A stretch of 64,000 bases of DNA from Abditibacteriaceae bacterium. GTDB lineage: Bacteria > Armatimonadota > Abditibacteriia > Abditibacteriales > Abditibacteriaceae. The position numbers and the translations under genes are program-made. Below the pieces are notes generated by a model that saw nothing but the letters and a program-made list of their open reading frames with translations, was not told the DNA's origin and searched no databases. Below are positions 3,535 through 60,974 of the stretch, piece by piece. The stretch is taken from NCBI GenBank assembly GCA_019239895.1, contig JAFAZH010000026.1, positions 1 through 64,000 of the forward strand, in the 5' to 3' direction. The stretch's first letter is position 1; the number at the start of each line of letters is the position of its first letter.

Positions 3535-3645
3535 GATTGCGGATTTCGGATTGGCGATTGCGGATTGAAGCATCCTAATTCAATAACGCCAATAATGTGC
3601 GCTACTTCATTAATCCGCAATCCGAAATCTACAATCCGCAATTGC
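3535..3645. repeat. Palindromic intergenic element, family F, between two tRNA genes
   Basis: The left arm (3535-3570) carries GATTGCGGATTTCGGATTGG and a second GATTGCGGATT. The right arm (3608-3645) reads as its imperfect reverse complement, with TTAATCCGCAATCCGAAATC followed by ACAATCCGCAATTG. The roughly 110-bp unit fills the whole gap between tRNA-Arg and tRNA-Ser. One arm of the same family recurs at 6918-6946. Confidence 0.8.
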
Positions 3646-7011: not shown

Positions 7012-7815
7012 ATGAAGAAATACTGGCGCGTTGCCGTTTTAGGTTGGCAAGATTCTCTGGTTTACCGCTTTAATGCTGTGGTCTGGGTGTGGTATGCAGT
7101 GCTGCCCTCGATAACGCTGATGCTGGTATGGTTGGCGGCGTATCAATCGAAAGGACGCAGCACCATTGGCAACTTCGACCTGCCGGGGATGATGACTTAT
7201 TACCTGTGCGTTACGGTGCTGTCCATCATCATTACACCGCATCCCGAATGGGACATCGCCCAGCAAGTGCGCGACGGCAAGATTACCCAGTTCATCGTGC
7301 GGCCCATCGGTTATTTCGGCTACCGCTTTGCCCAGGAAACTTCCTATCAGATCGTAAAAAGCTTTATGATGCTCCCGGCACTGGGCGTCATGGTCTGGCT
7401 GTTTCATGCGTATTTGCGCTTGCCAGTTCTTGATGGACTGCGCTGGGCGGAGTTTTTTCTGTCAGCATTACTGGCTTACATGCTCCTATCCCAATTCAAG
7501 TTCCTGTTAGGCATCTCCGCCTTCTGGCTGGCCGAACCAGGTGGTTTTCTGGAAATCTGGAATGTTCTTGTGGGCGTTATGGCGGGCCGCTTATTGCCCG
7601 TGTCGCTGTTACCCGGATGGCTGCAAAGAGTGAGCACTGACCTCCCCTTCTCCTCCTTCTACGCCTTTCCCATGCGGATTTTACTCTCTCCCATCACAGC
7701 AGAGGAGATACGGTTGGGATTGACACGCCAATGCCTCTGGCTGCTGGCACTGGCATTTCTAGTGCGGTGGACATGGAACCGTGGCCTGCTGGCTTATGAA
7801 GCTTATGGGGGTTAG
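7012..7815 (+). CDS. ABC-2 type transporter permease (COG4587-like)
   Basis: A 267-aa integral membrane protein with about six hydrophobic helices and no signal peptide. The N-terminus (MKKYWRVAVLGWQDSLVYRF) and the segment GKITQFIVRPIGYFGYRFAQE are characteristic of the ABC-2 permease family PF06182/COG4587, which normally forms a heterodimer with a second permease (COG3694) and an ATPase. Neither partner is adjacent; the next gene is convergent. The complex must be completed by genes elsewhere, or the gene is an orphan. Its stop codon (7813-7815) lies at the terminus of a palindromic repeat. Confidence 0.85.
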   Translation: MKKYWRVAVLGWQDSLVYRFNAVVWVWYAVLPSITLMLVWLAAYQSKGRSTIGNFDLPGMMTYYLCVTVLSIIITPHPEWDIAQQVRDGKITQFIVRPIGYFGYRFAQETSYQIVKSFMMLPALGVMVWLFHAYLRLPVLDGLRWAEFFLSALLAYMLLSQFKFLLGISAFWLAEPGGFLEIWNVLVGVMAGRLLPVSLLPGWLQRVSTDLPFSSFYAFPMRILLSPITAEEIRLGLTRQCLWLLALAFLVRWTWNRGLLAYEAYGG

Positions 7816-8027
7816 CCCTCACCCCCAGCCCCTCTCCCACTGCGTAGGCGAGGGGTGCCCTAAAGGATGAATGGCTCCTAAAACTAAATAACGCAGAGCA
7901 CACAGAGAATAAGCTTTGGATTCTTTTCTGTGCTTTCCGCGCCTCTGCGGTTCGCCTATTTCACGAGTCAGTGCTAGTTTGTGCTCCCCTCGCCTACGCA
8001 GTGGGAGAGGGGCTGGGGGTGAGGGCT
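7814..8027. repeat. Palindromic element, family B, with a nested family A-like palindrome
   Basis: Outer arms run AGCCCTCACCCCCAGCCCCT, then CTCCCACTGCGTAGGCGAGGGG, from 7814 to about 7856, and as reverse complement from about 7983 to 8027. The central region holds a second, degenerate palindrome (about 7890-7955: ACGCAGAGCACACAGAGAA against CTGTGCTTTCCGCGCCTCTG) related to the CACAGAG family A. Both flanking genes end in the arm tips: the permease stop at 7813-7815 and the DUF72 stop at 8026-8028 (both TAG). It may double as a bidirectional terminator. Confidence 0.85.
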
Positions 8028-8829
8028 AAAACAATGTCCCCTGCTCGCTCTTTTCCACCACTTCTTTAATCGGCAATCCCAGTCGTTGCTTAAAAGCATC
8101 CACACTGCCGGGGGAATAGCCTGCCCAGTGATTGTTGAAGTAGCCCCATATTTCTGGAGTGGGCAAAGCTTTGATAATGTCGGCCCAGCGAGTTTCTTCG
8201 TTGGAGCAGTCTTTTTTTAAGCTGTTGAAGGGGGCCATTGGCGCGTCACGGTCGCCCAGCCAGCGGATATAGCTAAAGGATGCCGTGGAGTAAAGCGGCA
8301 AAGGGGAGGCGCTGGTGAGCAGGTTGCCCGTATCAGCCCAGGCCCAGGCAACACCCGCCGTTTCCAGCAAATCGGCATATTCTTGCTGGAACCAGGAGCG
8401 ATGCCGAAACTCCATTGCAAATTTCCAACCGCTGGGCAATAAGAGGAGAAAGTCACGCAATGTGTCTACGGAAGCTGCCGAAAAGTGCGGCGGGAACTGA
8501 AACAGCACTGGCCCTAAACGGTCTTCCAGGTAGCTGATAACATGCAGAAAGGCGTTAAATTCATCGGCGCAATCTATTAAGGATCTATCGTGGGTGATGG
8601 TGCGGGGCACTTTGAGGGCAAAGCGGAAGCCATCGGGGACGCGCTTGCGCCAGGATTCCACTACGCGCCGTGCCGGAATGCTGTACCACGTCGAGTCTAT
8701 CTCCACCGTATCAAAGTGGCGCGCATAGGAGGCCAGTTCATCCGCTGCGCCAGAAGGATAGAAGACACTTTTCCAGTCATCGTATTTCCAACTACTAGTG
8801 CCTAAATAAATGCGTTGCGAAGATGCCAT
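8026..8829 (-). CDS. DUF72 (YecE-like) family protein
   Basis: A 267-aa protein of the DUF72 family, a TIM-barrel fold of unknown enzymatic role. Family blocks are present: YLGTSSWKYDDWKSVFYP at residue 8, YARHFDTVEIDSTWYSIPA at about 35, FRFALKVPRTITHDR near 70, GPVLFQFPPHF near 105 and WGYFNNHWAGYSPGSVDAFK near the C-terminus. No export signal is present. The gene is monocistronic and convergent with the ABC-2 permease, with the palindromic element filling the gap between them. Some members of the family occur near DNA repair or nuclease genes, but nothing here fixes its function. Confidence 0.88.
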   Translation of the reverse strand: MASSQRIYLGTSSWKYDDWKSVFYPSGAADELASYARHFDTVEIDSTWYSIPARRVVESWRKRVPDGFRFALKVPRTITHDRSLIDCADEFNAFLHVISYLEDRLGPVLFQFPPHFSAASVDTLRDFLLLLPSGWKFAMEFRHRSWFQQEYADLLETAGVAWAWADTGNLLTSASPLPLYSTASFSYIRWLGDRDAPMAPFNSLKKDCSNEETRWADIIKALPTPEIWGYFNNHWAGYSPGSVDAFKQRLGLPIKEVVEKSEQGTLF

Positions 8830-11443: not shown

Positions 11444-13231
11444 ATGTCCGCCGACTCAACGGCTTCCAATATAGAGATCATTCAATCCGATAACTCTACC
11501 CATCCCATTGGCTCATTCATGCTCGTCTTGCACGCGCATCTGCCGTGGGTGCTATCGCATGGGCGGTGGCCCAATGGCGTGGACTGGCTTTGTGAAGCCA
11601 CGGCGGAAACCTATATTCCTCTCCTCAATGTCTTTAATCGCCTGCTCAACGACGACATTGCGCCGCGTGTCACATTAGCCATCACGCCAGTGCTGTGCGA
11701 TATGCTTTCCAGCATGTCGTTCATGTACACCTTTCAGGAGTATTTGCAGTTCCGCATTGATGCAGCCAGTCGCAATGCCCGTGAATTCGCCGCACAGGGC
11801 TTAGATGATTACCGCGACATCGCGCTCTTCTGGGAGAACTGGTATACCAACATTGCCCGCGACTTTGAGCAGACTTACGAACGGGATGTGGTAGGCGCAT
11901 TCCGCAAGTTGCAGGATCACGGTGGGCTAGAAATTATTACTTCCACTGCAACCCATGCCTACCTGCCACTCTTAGGCACCGACGAGGCAATCCATGCACA
12001 AATTCGGCTGGGCGTGGATAGTTATAAAAAGCACTTCGGACGCCAGCCACGGGGTATCTGGCTACCAGAGTGCGCCTATCGTCCACGCGGCGAATGGCTA
12101 CCCCCAGAAGCCGTGCGTGCTGAAGGCACCAAGCCTGTTTTGCGTAAGGGTGTAGATGAGTTTCTGGCCGCGAATCAACTGCATTATTTCGTCATAGATA
12201 GCCATCTGTTGCACGGGGGTAAGCCGCCCGGACATTATCTGGAACGCTATGACTCGCTGCGCTGGATGCACGAAACCTTTGCGGACCAGCACGTTGACAC
12301 ACCCGAAGATGGTTCGCGTTCGCCGCACGAGGTTTATTTGGTTTCCTCCGCACCCGGCAGTGCGGCTCCCGTGGCTTGTTTCACGCAGCACGAGCCAACC
12401 TCAACCCAGCTCTGGCAAGCGACTGGAGGTTATGCTTGCGAAGGTGTTTACCTCGACTCCCACAAGAAACATTTTCCCGGTGGCCATCGCCTCTGGCGTG
12501 TGACCTCGCCCTCTGCCAACCTCGCCCAGAAGGAACCTTACGAACCTCTACGGGTAGGCGAGACTTGTGAAGCGCAAGCCAATCACTTCGTTGGCATGGT
12601 CAAAGACGCCCTGCGCAGTTACTCCGAGCAGTCTGGGCAATTGGGTATCGTCTGCTGCACCTGCGATGCGAAGCTATTTGGCCCCATGTGGTTTGAAGGC
12701 ACCAACTGGTTCTACCGCACGCTCAAGAAATTATGGCAGGATGAAGAAATCAACCTTTCCACGGGCAGCCAGTATATAGATATGCTGGATTCTGCCGAGA
12801 CCATTACCCTGCCCGAAGGCAGTTGGGGCGAGGGCGGCTCTGACCTCATCTGGCTCAATGCCGATACAGAATGGATTTGGCGCGAGATCTACGACTGCGA
12901 AGCCATCATGAGCCGCCTGGCCCGTGAATATAAAGATACCCCGAACCCAAAACTGCGCCAGATTTTAGAGCAATGCGCCCGCGAAGTCCTGCTCATGGAA
13001 TCCTCCGACTGGCCCTTCCTCATTTCGACCATGACGGCCCGCGAATATGCCGAACTGCGTTGCGCTGGCCACGTTGATATGTTCCGGCGGCTGGTGGGCA
13101 TTGCCGAAAAAGTCGCCGCCGGAGAATTTATGAGCGAAGGCGAACGCCAGTTCCTCCACGCCACCCAGGAACGCGATAAATGCTTCTCTCCCATCCCGTT
13201 GGAATTATGGGCTAATTCTCTGGGAGATTAA
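11444..13231 (+). CDS. GH57-family glycosidase (1,4-alpha-glucan branching enzyme type)
   Basis: The 595-aa product begins its core with GSFMLVLHAHLPWVLSHGRWP, the N-terminal signature of GH57/DUF1957 branching enzymes. It carries the nucleophile motif GIWLPECAYRP with Glu209, and a C-terminal helical DUF1957-like domain. GH57 branching enzymes introduce alpha-1,6 branches into glycogen. The second catalytic Asp is expected in the segment CTCDAKLFGPMWFEGTNWF. I chose ATG 11444 because GAGGATAAG lies just upstream; an in-frame TTG 72 nt earlier is weaker. The stop codon (13229-13231) overlaps the first bases of the inverted repeat that frames the next gene. No glycogen synthase gene is nearby. 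Confidence 0.88.
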   Translation: MSADSTASNIEIIQSDNSTHPIGSFMLVLHAHLPWVLSHGRWPNGVDWLCEATAETYIPLLNVFNRLLNDDIAPRVTLAITPVLCDMLSSMSFMYTFQEYLQFRIDAASRNAREFAAQGLDDYRDIALFWENWYTNIARDFEQTYERDVVGAFRKLQDHGGLEIITSTATHAYLPLLGTDEAIHAQIRLGVDSYKKHFGRQPRGIWLPECAYRPRGEWLPPEAVRAEGTKPVLRKGVDEFLAANQLHYFVIDSHLLHGGKPPGHYLERYDSLRWMHETFADQHVDTPEDGSRSPHEVYLVSSAPGSAAPVACFTQHEPTSTQLWQATGGYACEGVYLDSHKKHFPGGHRLWRVTSPSANLAQKEPYEPLRVGETCEAQANHFVGMVKDALRSYSEQSGQLGIVCCTCDAKLFGPMWFEGTNWFYRTLKKLWQDEEINLSTGSQYIDMLDSAETITLPEGSWGEGGSDLIWLNADTEWIWREIYDCEAIMSRLAREYKDTPNPKLRQILEQCAREVLLMESSDWPFLISTMTAREYAELRCAGHVDMFRRLVGIAEKVAAGEFMSEGERQFLHATQERDKCFSPIPLELWANSLGD

Positions 13232-13260
13232 CCACAGAGACACCGAGGCACAGAGAAGAT
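13228..13260. repeat. Left terminal inverted repeat, family A (GxxExxY unit)
   Basis: This 33-bp sequence starts TTAACCACAGAGACACCGAG and is the perfect reverse complement of 13746-13778. It contains the GH57 stop codon and begins the 551-bp unit that carries the GxxExxY gene. Confidence 0.92.
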
Positions 13261-13305
13261 TAGGAGAGTTTAGCTTATAGCTTGGTTATGGTAATCTTTA
13301 GCTTT

Positions 13306-13713
13306 ATGAGCTATAACTACCAAGACTGCAATGAAGAGGATACAGGCAAAGACCCACTAACCGCTAAAGTTATTGGTGCGGCTATTGAGGTTCACCGTGC
13401 TCTTGGCCCAGGTTTACTGGAATCAGCTTATGAAGAATGTCTTTTCTACGAATTAACTCAAGCCAGGTTGAGCCTCCAACGGCAAGTACCACTACCCATC
13501 TTGTACAAAGAAGTCAGGCTTGATTGTGGCTACCGTCTGGACATTGTGGTGAATGAATCACTAATTGTAGAACTAAAAGCTGTAGAAAAATTAGTGCCAG
13601 TACATGAAGCCCAACTTCTCACCTACTTAAAACTCACAGGCATGAGAACTGGCCTCCTAATTAACTTCAACACTGCCCTGCTGAAGAACGGCATTAAACG
13701 ACTAGTTCTCTAA
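13306..13713 (+). CDS. GxxExxY family protein (PDDEXK-like)
   Basis: A 135-aa protein with the family signature VIGAAIEVHRALGPGLLESAYEECL, in which G-L-L-E-S-A-Y is the GxxExxY motif. DCGYRLDIVVNESLIVELKAVE follows; its D..(E)xK core resembles a PD-(D/E)XK nuclease active site, and the family is filed as PDDEXK_3. The function is unknown. Possible starts are TTG 13282, ATG 13288 and ATG 13306; the last best matches typical family N-termini, and none has a good ribosome binding site. The gene lies between perfect 33-bp inverted repeats that fill the rest of the gap between the GH57 and alanine dehydrogenase genes. That makes it look like cargo of, or the driver of, a small mobile unit. Codon use seems more AT-rich than its neighbours. 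Confidence 0.88.
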   Translation: MSYNYQDCNEEDTGKDPLTAKVIGAAIEVHRALGPGLLESAYEECLFYELTQARLSLQRQVPLPILYKEVRLDCGYRLDIVVNESLIVELKAVEKLVPVHEAQLLTYLKLTGMRTGLLINFNTALLKNGIKRLVL

Positions 13714-13745
13714 AGCCTCCTGAACAATAAAACTCCCTTTCTCTC

Positions 13746-13778
13746 ATCTTCTCTGTGCCTCGGTGTCTCTGTGGTTAA
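13746..13778. repeat. Right terminal inverted repeat, family A (GxxExxY unit)
   Basis: Perfect 33-bp reverse complement of 13228-13260. It ends 8 nt before the ald start codon, leaving no room for a normal ribosome binding site outside the repeat. A related pair without the gene is at 60833-60974. Confidence 0.92.
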
Positions 13779-14903: not shown

Positions 14904-15057
14904 GCCGGGGCTATAAAAGCCCCGGCAGGGAGGCTAAAGCCGACCGTCCTTTGGACGGCATACAGCAAGGGCACGATAAATCATGCCCCTACATGTGGCG
15001 TCCAGCGGACGCTTGGCGGCTTGTCCGCCTTCCTGCCGGGGCTTTTATAGCCCCGGC
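14904..15057. repeat. Palindromic element, family D, intact copy
   Basis: The arms start GCCGGGGCTATAAAAGCCCC, each itself a hairpin. They continue inward with AGGCTAAAGCCGACCGTCCT on the left and GTGGCGTCCAGCGGACGCTT on the right. At the centre sits a separate small palindrome GGGCACGATAAATCATGCCC. The element fills the gap between ald (stop at 14900-14902) and the next gene. The halves of another copy are found apart at 46131-46205 and 48616-48675. Confidence 0.88.
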
Positions 15058-19591: not shown

Positions 19592-19835
19592 GCACTTTAA
19601 AATTATGAACCGCCAAGGACGCCAAGAGCGCCAAGAAGAAGAAGAGGGGGAGAAAAGGAGAGAGGGAGAAGGGGGAATGATTTAGGTGTCATGTTGAGCG
19701 CAGCGAAACATCGCGTGCTTAACAGGTAATGGGGACTCTTCGGCACGCGATGTTTCGCTGCGCTCAACATGACACACGCTCCTTTTCTTCTCTTCTTGGC
19801 GCTCTTGGCGTCCTTGGCGGTTCAATTTAAAGTGC
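19592..19835. repeat. Palindromic element, family I, with nested family E palindrome
   Basis: Outer arms begin GCACTTTAAAATTATGAACC and GCACTTTAAATTGAACCGCC (right arm read on the minus strand), then share CCGCCAAGGACGCCAAGAGC. The centre holds a second perfect palindrome at 19686-19775. The stop and last two codons of the downstream minus-strand gene (19827) lie in the right arm. Confidence 0.9.
19686..19775. repeat. Nested perfect palindrome, family E
   Basis: Two perfectly inverted 33-bp arms, beginning GTGTCATGTTGAGCGCAGCG and ending at 19775, surround a 24-nt loop. They lie inside the family I element. Related copies are at 23141-23264 and 18261-18353. Confidence 0.9.
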
Positions 19836-23087: not shown

Positions 23088-23140
23088 GCCTCTACGATTT
23101 CAATACCGAGTTTATGTTGAAGCGAATAAAGAGTTCTTGT

Positions 23141-23264
23141 AATAGTTTGTCAGGCTGAGCGCAGCGAAGCATCTATTTGGCGGAGCTTCACAGATGCGGG
23201 TTTACCCAATACTCTCTGCACCATCTTACCAGATGCTTCGTTACACTCAGCCTGACAAACTATT
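23141..23264. repeat. Palindromic element, family E
   Basis: Arms AATAGTTTGTCAGGCTGAGC (left, continuing GCAGCGAAGCATCT) and its reverse complement at the right (AGATGCTTCG to AACTATT) surround a loop of about 55 nt. It shares the core GAGCGCAGCGAA with 19686-19775. It lies between the small protein gene and the 3' end of glmS. Confidence 0.85.
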
Positions 23265-23295
23265 ACTTTCTCTCAACGGTTCGGAGTCTCTTTTA

Positions 23296-51101: not shown

Positions 51102-51211
51102 TCAGTAGCCGGTGGTCGGTGGTCGGTAGTCAGTGGGAAGACCGGGGTAGAGCGATTTCCTTAACCTCTGGTTTTCCTCACCGACTACCGACTACCGACC
51201 ACCGACCACCA
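51102..51211. repeat. Palindromic element, family H
   Basis: GTAGCCGGTGGTCGGTGGTC and GGTCGGTAGTCAGTGGG on the left pair with CACCGACTACCGACTACCGA and CCACCGACCACC on the right. It occupies the full gap between the oxidoreductase stop (51099-51101) and the hisD start (51214). Confidence 0.82.
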
Positions 51212-55840: not shown

Positions 55841-55938
55841 GAGTTCCTGAGATTCCCTTTCTTAAGTAAACGGACGCAATGGGAATTTAGCTTTGCCCTG
55901 GCCCTCTAACAATGGCAGGTTGATGGGGCACCGTCAGT

Positions 55939-56102
55939 AGCCCTCACCCCCAGCCCCTCTCCCAATACTGGTAGAGGGGAGTTCACACCCCTACGCTTCT
56001 TCTCAGGCAAAGTTTCTCTTTCAGAAGCATCATACTCTTAGGAGCCAGTCCGCCTTAGTGCTCCCCTCTACCAGTATTGGGAGAGGGGCTGAGGGTGAGG
56101 GC
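55939..56102. repeat. Palindromic element, family B, second copy
   Basis: Arms AGCCCTCACCCCCAGCCCCT, continuing CTCCCAATACTGGTAGAGGGG, from 55939 and their reverse complement to 56102, around a ~75-nt centre. Compared with the copy at 7814, the outer 25 bp are the same while the inner parts of both arms have changed together. The rest of 55841-56182 shows no gene. Confidence 0.88.
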
Positions 56103-56182: not shown

Positions 56183-57523
56183 ATGATTACGGCTATTGTG
56201 ACCAGTGATAATCATTTAGGGGTGTATTATGCCCGCTTGCGGCCTGACCGTTTGGAAGAACGGCGACGGTCGTTGCAGCGGGCCTTTGAGCGCGTGGTGG
56301 ATGCAGCTTTAGAGCGACGGGCGAATTTATTCTTGCACGCCGGAGACCTCTTTGATCGGCCTGACCCGCGCAATGCGGAGCGGCTTTTTGTGGCCCGGCA
56401 GATGCGCCGCCTGGGGGAAGCCAATATTCCTATCTTTGCCATTACGGGCAATCACGATAGCCCACGCAGTTATGGCTATGATGGCGGCATTGCGCCCCAG
56501 GAAGAGTTAGCGGCTTTAGATGCGATTCACCTCTTCCGCAATAGTCATGAGGTGCAGTCAAGAATGGTTGAGATTCAAGGCCAGCGTGTCTGCATCTGGG
56601 GCATGAGCAGTGATTTTAATCGGCCCTTAGATGTATGCCCGCTGGAAGATACTGTTAAAGAGCATCAGCGCGAGGGCGACATCAACATTGGCTTGCTGCA
56701 CTATGGAGTCGAAGGCTGGGCACGCGCTGATGTGCAAGAGCCGACGTTATCCCTGGAGAATCTGGATAAGCTCCAGGCCGATGCGCTTTGTATTGGTCAT
56801 TTACATGAGCGTCAACAAAAGCGCCTTCCCGGTGGTGCCGTGCTATTGAATCCCGGTGGAACCGAGCACATTCATTTCGGCGAAGAAAAGTTAGAGTGCG
56901 GGTTCTGGATTCTCAGCATGGAACCAGGGCACGTTGAAGCCGAGTATGTTCCCCTGCCCACGCAACCGATGCGGACATTGAGGATTGATCTGACAGATTG
57001 GCCCGCACCCCCCGGCCCCCTCTCCCCAGCTTGGGGAGAGGGGGAGAGAAGCGAATCTGAAATGGGTTTAGCAAAAGACACTGAGGAAGATCCTCAACCC
57101 GAATTTAACTCTTCTCCCGTTGCTAATGGTGACTCTCCCCTCTCCCCAAGTTGGGGAGAGGGGCCGGGGGTGAGGGCCGCTATTGAAGAGGTATCCGATC
57201 CGTCGCAGTTGTTGCGCGTGCGCTTAAGCGGGCGGGTGCCGCGTGAGCGATTTCAAGAGATTGACTTAGCAGCCATTCAAGCTGAGGCCAACGAGCGCAA
57301 CTTCTACTGTCAGCTTGAGACGGCAGAGTTGACGGTTTACGACCACGCTGAAGATTTGCTGATTGGCTATGGCGTGAGCTTTGACGCCGGGGCGGAACTG
57401 AAACATCAGATGCAATGTGTGCTAGAGAACTATTCTGATGATGCGGCGGAACAGGAGATTTGTCACTTAGCCGGGCAACACCTGGAAATGACTTATGACC
57501 GCTTGACGAAAGGTGCCCGATGA
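56183..57523 (+). CDS. sbcD: SbcD/Mre11-type exonuclease subunit with in-frame repeat insertion
   Basis: A 446-aa calcineurin-like phosphoesterase, nuclease subunit of the SbcCD complex that opens hairpins and cuts palindromic DNA. Metal sites are intact: Asp9 and His11 (SDNHLG), Asp55 (HAGDLFDRPD), Asn90-His91 (TGNHDSP), His173 (LLHYG), and His206/His208 (GHLHER). Residues about 273-332 are encoded by a family B palindrome (57001-57178), giving the mirror-like peptides PLSPAWGEGE and PLSPSWGEGPGVRA. The frame is preserved. The insert lies between the nuclease and the capping/C-terminal region. The sbcC start overlaps its stop by 4 nt (ATGA), so subunits are made together. Confidence 0.93.
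   Translation: MITAIVTSDNHLGVYYARLRPDRLEERRRSLQRAFERVVDAALERRANLFLHAGDLFDRPDPRNAERLFVARQMRRLGEANIPIFAITGNHDSPRSYGYDGGIAPQEELAALDAIHLFRNSHEVQSRMVEIQGQRVCIWGMSSDFNRPLDVCPLEDTVKEHQREGDINIGLLHYGVEGWARADVQEPTLSLENLDKLQADALCIGHLHERQQKRLPGGAVLLNPGGTEHIHFGEEKLECGFWILSMEPGHVEAEYVPLPTQPMRTLRIDLTDWPAPPGPLSPAWGEGERSESEMGLAKDTEEDPQPEFNSSPVANGDSPLSPSWGEGPGVRAAIEEVSDPSQLLRVRLSGRVPRERFQEIDLAAIQAEANERNFYCQLETAELTVYDHAEDLLIGYGVSFDAGAELKHQMQCVLENYSDDAAEQEICHLAGQHLEMTYDRLTKGAR
57001..57178. repeat. Family B palindrome inside the sbcD coding sequence
   Basis: Left arm about 57001-57048 (CCCCGGCCCCCTCTCCCCAG then CTTGGGGAGAGGGGGAGAG), right arm about 57133-57178, ending GCCGGGGGTGAGGGC. Centre about 85 nt. It keeps the reading frame open and free of stop codons. 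Confidence 0.92.
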
Positions 57524-60832: not shown

Positions 60833-60974
60833 TTAACCACAGAGACACAGAGGTTTTGAGAGGGGGACGAGGATAGCAGAGCGAAGATGGAGGATAGCAG
60901 ATGCTCTACCAGAGGTCTTTCGATTTTCTAACCTCTATTCTCCATCCTCAAAATCTCTGTGTCTCTGTGGTTAA
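60833..60974. repeat. Family A palindrome without gene (empty version)
   Basis: Ends TTAACCACAGAGACACAGAG (60833) and its reverse complement (to 60974) match in 28 of 29 bp and are related to the 33-bp repeats that enclose the GxxExxY gene (13228-13778). The centre holds GAGGATAGC/TGGAGGATAGC words like family G. It starts 1 nt after the sbcC stop and ends 17 nt before the next start. Confidence 0.9.

Follow-up and report, generated by a model that had tools for sequence, protein, structure and literature searches.

GxxExxY genes enclosed by palindromes of tandem heptamers: a candidate one-gene element resembling REPIN/RAYT systems

In the genome of an Abditibacteriaceae bacterium, a small gene encoding a GxxExxY protein is enclosed by inverted repeats, and a gene-free palindrome with similar ends lies elsewhere on the same contig. 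This locus raises the question of whether gene and palindrome belong together as one element, and whether the protein moves the palindrome or is only carried within it. The window analyzed here comprises 64,000 nucleotides (positions 1 to 64,000, forward strand, of contig JAFAZH010000026.1, assembly GCA_019239895.1). The left arm of the unit (13228..13260, + strand) consists of the heptamers CACAGAG, CACCGAG, and CACAGAG in tandem, 9 bp apart, and the right arm (13746..13778, - strand) was confirmed to be its exact reverse complement over 33 bp; when extended, the arms reached 36 nt at 97% complementarity. The unit is intergenic, between protein genes, and its coordinates agreed with the original prediction that it occupies the whole gap: the upstream GH57 / branching-enzyme-like gene ends at 13231, its TAA stop overlapping with the left arm, and 8 bp separate the end of the right arm from the ATG of alanine dehydrogenase (13787). 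The enclosed gene (13306..13713, + strand) most likely encodes a nuclease of the RecB/Cas4 PD-(D/E)XK type; its likely start is the ATG at 13306, the longest open reading frame beginning at a TTG at 13282. Its assignment to the GxxExxY proteins was borne out by the scores for TIGR04256 (158.5 bits, curated cut-off 35) and PF13366 (PDDEXK_3; 150.7 bits, curated cut-off 22). PF13366 was also the sole Pfam match in the unit, which thus contains no transposase, as predicted. The Rfam search of the window returned two tRNAs only, with no family matching the element and no rRNA. In protein and arms alike, the nearest units came from two MAGs, one alphaproteobacterial and one kiritimatiellal.

The GxxExxY protein is a minimal single domain of around 125 aa. 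In the window protein (142-aa frame from 13285) the residues of catalytic type are E46, D86, E96, K98, Q110, and Y114, and G43, E46, and Y49 of the GxxExxY motif are invariant. Among 155 homologues, the glutamate of GxxExxY, the D, E, and K of the PD-(D/E)XK core, and the Q and Y of QxxxY were conserved at 97-99%, so that the ExK and QxxxY active-site residues of RecB/Cas4-type enzymes are kept. Profile matches at relaxed thresholds were mainly to Cas4 models; they were weak and below the family cut-offs, and they aligned exactly on the catalytic residues. The AlphaFold model (pLDDT 87.6) had Cas4 (SSO0001), lambda exonuclease, and RecE as its nearest Foldseek neighbors, all of them weak (E of at least 0.004, TM-scores around 0.35-0.51), and a search of solved structures by sequence gave no relative. 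Conserved catalytic residues, Cas4 alignments at those residues and the nearest predicted folds taken together make an active RecB/Cas4-type DNA nuclease the most likely identity of GxxExxY. It shares the D, ExK, and QxxxY of the RecB/Cas4/lambda-exonuclease (QxxxY) group but differs from Cas4 in lacking the conserved Fe-S cysteine set, only one cysteine (C52) being nearly invariant, and in having no CRISPR or phage context. In the open-access literature we found no publication on the function of GxxExxY, PF13366, or TIGR04256, no paper containing the arm sequence and no earlier account of such elements, although one may exist elsewhere.

Enclosure of GxxExxY genes was assessed by pairwise alignment of the 400-bp flanks lying to the left and right of each gene, shuffled sequences serving as control. 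All three GxxExxY genes of the host genome were enclosed by inverted arms, of three types mutually unrelated in sequence (CACAGAG-type, CCACGAATGGACACGAAT-type, and GACGCTAATT..GCGCTATTT-type). Enclosed genes amounted to 25/26 in the class to which the window belongs, 47/58 in a wider sample of the phylum and 49/74 among the nearest homologues from diverse phyla, one archaeal MAG included; over all usable units the value was 120/157, around three quarters, from many phyla and one archaeon, these counts being not fully independent since 17 of the diverse loci represent a single syntenic site of Flavobacteriaceae type, the hemW-cyclase site. Nine of the remaining 37 genes had motif arms on both sides in the correct orientation, and around one fifth of GxxExxY genes had no detectable arms. 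Of the control ORFs in the same loci, 13/228 were enclosed, the top-scoring ones including four-helix-bundle genes and a second GxxExxY gene. The pattern was also found in closed or near-closed genomes, e.g., CP096136 and G122, the latter a single contig of 5.2 Mb resembling Fimbriimonas. A typical arm carries about three tandem CRCNRAK-like heptamers spaced 8-11 bp apart, approximately one DNA turn, with self-repetition of the arms detected at 8-10 bp, and the idea of one common 33-bp end had to be abandoned, as arm ends vary widely.

Some loci departed from the simple layout. Eight of the 157 (L134, L141, L123, L133, L036, L144, L156, and L205) displayed a composite-like arrangement of palindrome, gene and palindrome, and 18 units positive for the inverted repeat had a complete palindrome on one side. 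At a second syntenic GxxExxY site of Flavobacterium (L061, L063, L095, and L107) arms are no longer detectable, and this is perhaps a domesticated copy. Plasmids and phages were considered as carriers and rejected, GxxExxY being present in 8 of 72,556 plasmid records and 0 of 50,697 phage records.

The arms proved to be specific for the gene that they enclose. Genes of the S23-type four-helix-bundle family (TIGR02436) were enclosed in 30/35 cases by arms with a period of 7, and at least two CRCNRAK heptamers were present in the arms of 103/120 GxxExxY units vs. 0/30 four-helix-bundle units. The pairing of GxxExxY with its arms is thus specific, since the S23-type genes sit in palindromes of another kind, with which they form a parallel one-gene palindrome system. 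Across phyla, arm similarity followed protein identity (rho 0.286, null maximum 0.175 in 2,000 permutations within groups, p = 0.0005): gene and arms move as a pair, and the type of arm is in line with the phylogeny of the protein. Concerted evolution of the arms in the Flavobacterium group was weak (p = 0.04). Examples of S23-type genes were located at L114-L120, L313-L340, and L081:4195-4680, with a clean empty site in L080. The host genome also holds a RAYT (Y1_Tnp) gene within its own GCCGGGGCTATAAAAGCCCCGGC palindrome (G000:C12:201911-202625, L311), and a further GCCGGGGCTATAAAAGCCCCGGC palindrome is found in the window at 14904-15057, just after alanine dehydrogenase. The GxxExxY, S23-type, and RAYT findings together give three unrelated gene families, each in its own palindrome class.

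Gene-less palindromes were abundant in the window and in the host genome. The empty palindrome at 60833-60974 noted in the original prediction is present directly after an SbcC/SMC-like gene (end 60831), as had been said. It has a left arm (60833..60860, + strand) of the same class as in the window GxxExxY unit, a core (60861..60946) containing a nested inverted repeat of period 7 and four-helix-bundle type (GAGGATAGCAGA..GATGGAGGATAGCAGA), and a right arm (60947..60974, - strand) complementary to the left one at 27/28 positions, and not at 28/29 as first given. Its ends had been called the same as those of the unit; around 20 of the 21 outer bp are indeed common to both but the arms then diverge, and it is therefore related to the unit but no exact deletion derivative of it. 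The CRCNRAK motif class has a second gene-free palindrome in the window at 19606-19824 (AACCGCCAAGGACGCCAAGAGCGCCAAG), with a left arm (19606..19639, + strand) of CGCCAAG-type heptamers, which fit CRCNRAK, and a right arm (19791..19824, - strand) of 34 nt and 100% complementarity. In the host genome, a 6.65-Mb draft in 60 contigs, 240 half-sites of the window arm were counted vs. 2 for the reversed control pattern, which places this repeat far beyond chance, and more than 100 gene-free palindromes of around 125 bp had CRCNRAK-like arms. A census based on 1.2 Mb of this genome and on pattern counts yielded 203 inverted repeats in around 20 families, among them CACAGAG, CACAAAG, and CACGAAT palindromes with a median length of around 125 bp. 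Gene-less palindromes of the host were intergenic in 48/51 cases, and 28 of 58 adjacent gene 3' ends lay within 15 bp of a palindrome element. Direct flank identity in 61 elements was at chance level, giving no sign of target-site duplications.

Other palindrome families accompany these in the window. Palindromes with CCCTCACCCCCAGCCCCTCTCCC arms, among the commonest families of the census, occur at 7812-8029, 55938-56102, and 57010-57170; those of another abundant family, TGTCATGCTGAGCGCAGCGAAGCATC, are at 19686-19775, nested within the CGCCAAG-type palindrome 19606-19824, and at 23139-23266. Gene-free palindromes with GCGGATTTCGGATTG and GGTCGGTGGTCGGTAG arms are at 3536-3642 and 51105-51209, and these arm types enclose four-helix-bundle genes elsewhere in the host genome. 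A nested period-7 palindrome of four-helix-bundle type (GGATAGAAGAT-like) was found in the core of 29/59 empty GxxExxY-type palindromes, as if one element type targeted the center of another.

The abundance of the palindromes followed the presence of the gene. The triple motif was present in 37/65 genomes with GxxExxY vs. 24/186 genomes without it, the latter 24 holding a few motif copies nonetheless, and at least 10 copies were reached in 23/65 vs. 3/186 genomes, respectively; the association persisted under permutation within families (p = 0.0013). Within genomes positive for the four-helix-bundle family the motif occurred in 32/52 with GxxExxY vs. 6/72 without, and the four-helix-bundle family itself had no effect on the occurrence of the triple motif. 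Genomes with a CRCRRAK-armed unit contained a median of 16.5 further sites, as compared with a median of 0 for other arm types (p = 1.7e-4). Co-occurrence of gene and palindrome across genomes, which the original prediction had proposed to check, was thus far above chance.

The same prediction had asked for relatives with an empty site, and two congeneric pairs (82-88% identity) provided them. In G171 a unit of 558 bp (L346:8663-9220) lies between two genes, and in the same gap its congener G189, 82% identical over approximately 7.8 kb, has a gene-free palindrome of 132 bp; the arms of the latter, read by eye because they are too gapped for the repeat finder, differ in type from those of the G171 unit and resemble those of the neighboring L169/L193 unit. 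The unit L163 of G068 is absent from the congener G096 at 88% identity, where the site contains a palindrome remnant and another insert; the G068 site itself displays three copies of the palindrome together with around 110 bp of the end of the neighboring gene. For the four-helix-bundle family, a unit in Flavobacterium cucumis starts from the upstream stop codon, and F. aquaticum has a short plain spacer there. Searches for empty sites gave no result for the window gene pair, where the nearest relatives lack synteny, for the genus of G122, where the flanking genes are not adjacent in congeners, and for L205 in G068, where no syntenic region was found. Besides the hemW-cyclase site, several further pairs of GxxExxY units were syntenic at 70-86% identity. 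Many units are old and remain in synteny, so that mobility at present is low in lineages of Flavobacteriaceae type; some lineages now have the unit in a fixed, vertically inherited state.

With a probability of roughly 0.6, we consider these loci to be a one-gene palindromic element, in which a GxxExxY nuclease gene is combined with tandem-heptamer arms and gene-less relatives spread in trans. The best reading of the comparative data is a system similar to REPIN/RAYT and probably run by a RecB/Cas4-like nuclease. We infer that this nuclease moves the palindromes. The GxxExxY protein would bind the tandem heptamers and cut the palindrome once it has been extruded into a hairpin or cruciform; repair of the break would then place copies of palindromes, gene-bearing or gene-less, at new intergenic positions. 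Gene-less palindromes would thereby multiply in trans, in the manner of REPINs with their RAYTs. Such cutting of extruded palindromes would be the most economical mechanism. A nuclease alone cannot join DNA ends, and a host repair route must therefore be assumed. The lack of target-site duplications and the great age of many units weigh most against this reading, along with the motif copies in 24 genomes free of the gene, the genes devoid of arms and the weak Foldseek values. Of the original view of an autonomous unit with a MITE-like derivative, the architecture, the co-occurrence and the unit-free sites stood, but neither constant ends nor a target-site duplication were found. GxxExxY units share with MITEs and their parent insertion sequences the terminal inverted repeats and the existence of gene-bearing and gene-less copies; they have no DDE transposase, and the lack of target-site duplication sets them apart from an ordinary transposon/MITE pair.

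In REPIN/RAYT systems, short intergenic inverted doublets occur many times per genome, each type tied to one gene that it flanks; the palindromes spread in trans, the gene is often single copy and vertical, and the RAYT protein is already thought to spread its repeats (PMC3116915). The GxxExxY system is alike in having intergenic inverted doublets, in the range of around 70-130 bp, in high copy number and cognate to a gene. In contrast, its units contain no HUH/Y1 transposase, the enzyme being a putative PD-(D/E)XK nuclease, and the host genome has a genuine Y1_Tnp, with palindromes of its own, at another place. Its arms are tandem CRCNRAK heptamers and not REPs, the arm ends (ACCACAGAG, AACACAAAG, and ACCACGAAT) have no GTAG or CGTC tag, and gene plus arms appear to be common to several phyla.

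Four other explanations were weighed against the one-gene element. The intervening sequences of 23S rRNA, in which a small ORF lies between inverted repeats and past mobility is suspected (PMC4990558), resemble GxxExxY units in that layout, although GxxExxY is of another predicted fold and lies outside rRNA genes, and the S23-type genes of the genomes examined are flanked by period-7 arms of their own. On the model of such sequences with an S23 ORF between terminal inverted repeats, the element could act as RNA, being co-transcribed with the upstream gene, its arms pairing into a long RNA stem and the transcript being acted on by RNase III or by the protein itself. The way elements hug stop codons (28/58, as above) fits this explanation, as does the fact that the sister four-helix-bundle family includes the S23 protein of the Coxiella intervening sequence, which has complementary ends (PMC4990558). 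However, the predicted fold and active site of GxxExxY are of DNA-exonuclease type, a DNA step is required to explain how elements multiply at new DNA sites and are absent from orthologous ones, and no Rfam family matched the element; we regard an RNA-level element as unlikely. Homing, which we hold to be just as improbable, would mean that the protein cuts gene-free palindromes, which are repaired from the gene-bearing copy, so that the gene enters existing palindromes and these owe their own spread to a different route. In the two polymorphic cases the gene-free congener has a palindrome or a palindrome remnant, and the complete palindromes on both sides (8/157) or one side (18 units) of some genes, together with the triplicated palindrome and adjacent gene end in G068, are in keeping with it. 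Yet at the cleanest site the palindrome of the congener has arms of another type, and a gene whose arm type accompanies the protein from phylum to phylum does not pass freely from one palindrome to the next.

The suggestion of a passenger protected by the palindrome fared worse. According to it, host or RAYT-type activity would spread the palindromes, and GxxExxY would be kept because the arms serve as terminators or insulators; a RAYT with its own palindromes in the same genome and the intergenic location of palindromes next to gene 3' ends are in keeping with this, whereas the copy number of palindromes follows the gene and its arm type. Given that arm type tracks the protein phylogeny across phyla and that arms of another class surround a different gene family (103/120 vs. 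0/30), we disfavor this explanation and rate it below the RNA-level and homing ones. Chance or assembly artefact, for which the many contigs of the draft genomes could be cited, has a negligible probability: controls with shuffled sequences, reversed patterns and other genes were negative, and the pattern appeared equally in the closed or near-closed genomes.

More tentatively, and at slightly less than even odds, GxxExxY elements may represent a previously undescribed class of prokaryotic mobile DNA, in which a RecB/Cas4-like nuclease recognizes tandem-heptamer palindromes and, by cutting them and leaving repair to the host, propagates them in the absence of any transposase or recombinase. 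They would then be part of a broader group of one-gene palindrome systems, with the S23 four-helix-bundle genes as a parallel second class. Both GxxExxY and S23-type four-helix-bundle proteins are encoded by common "hypothetical" genes for which no role is known, and environmental genomes commonly contain short-period palindromes, e.g., CCACAGAGACACAGAG, as unexplained repeats. By pairing each of the two protein families with a palindrome class of its own, the present data provide both with a function that can be tested. A further suggestion is that a RecB/Cas4-like nuclease together with host repair can suffice for elements to multiply in prokaryotes, and such multiplication would bear on the origin of Cas4 and related nucleases.
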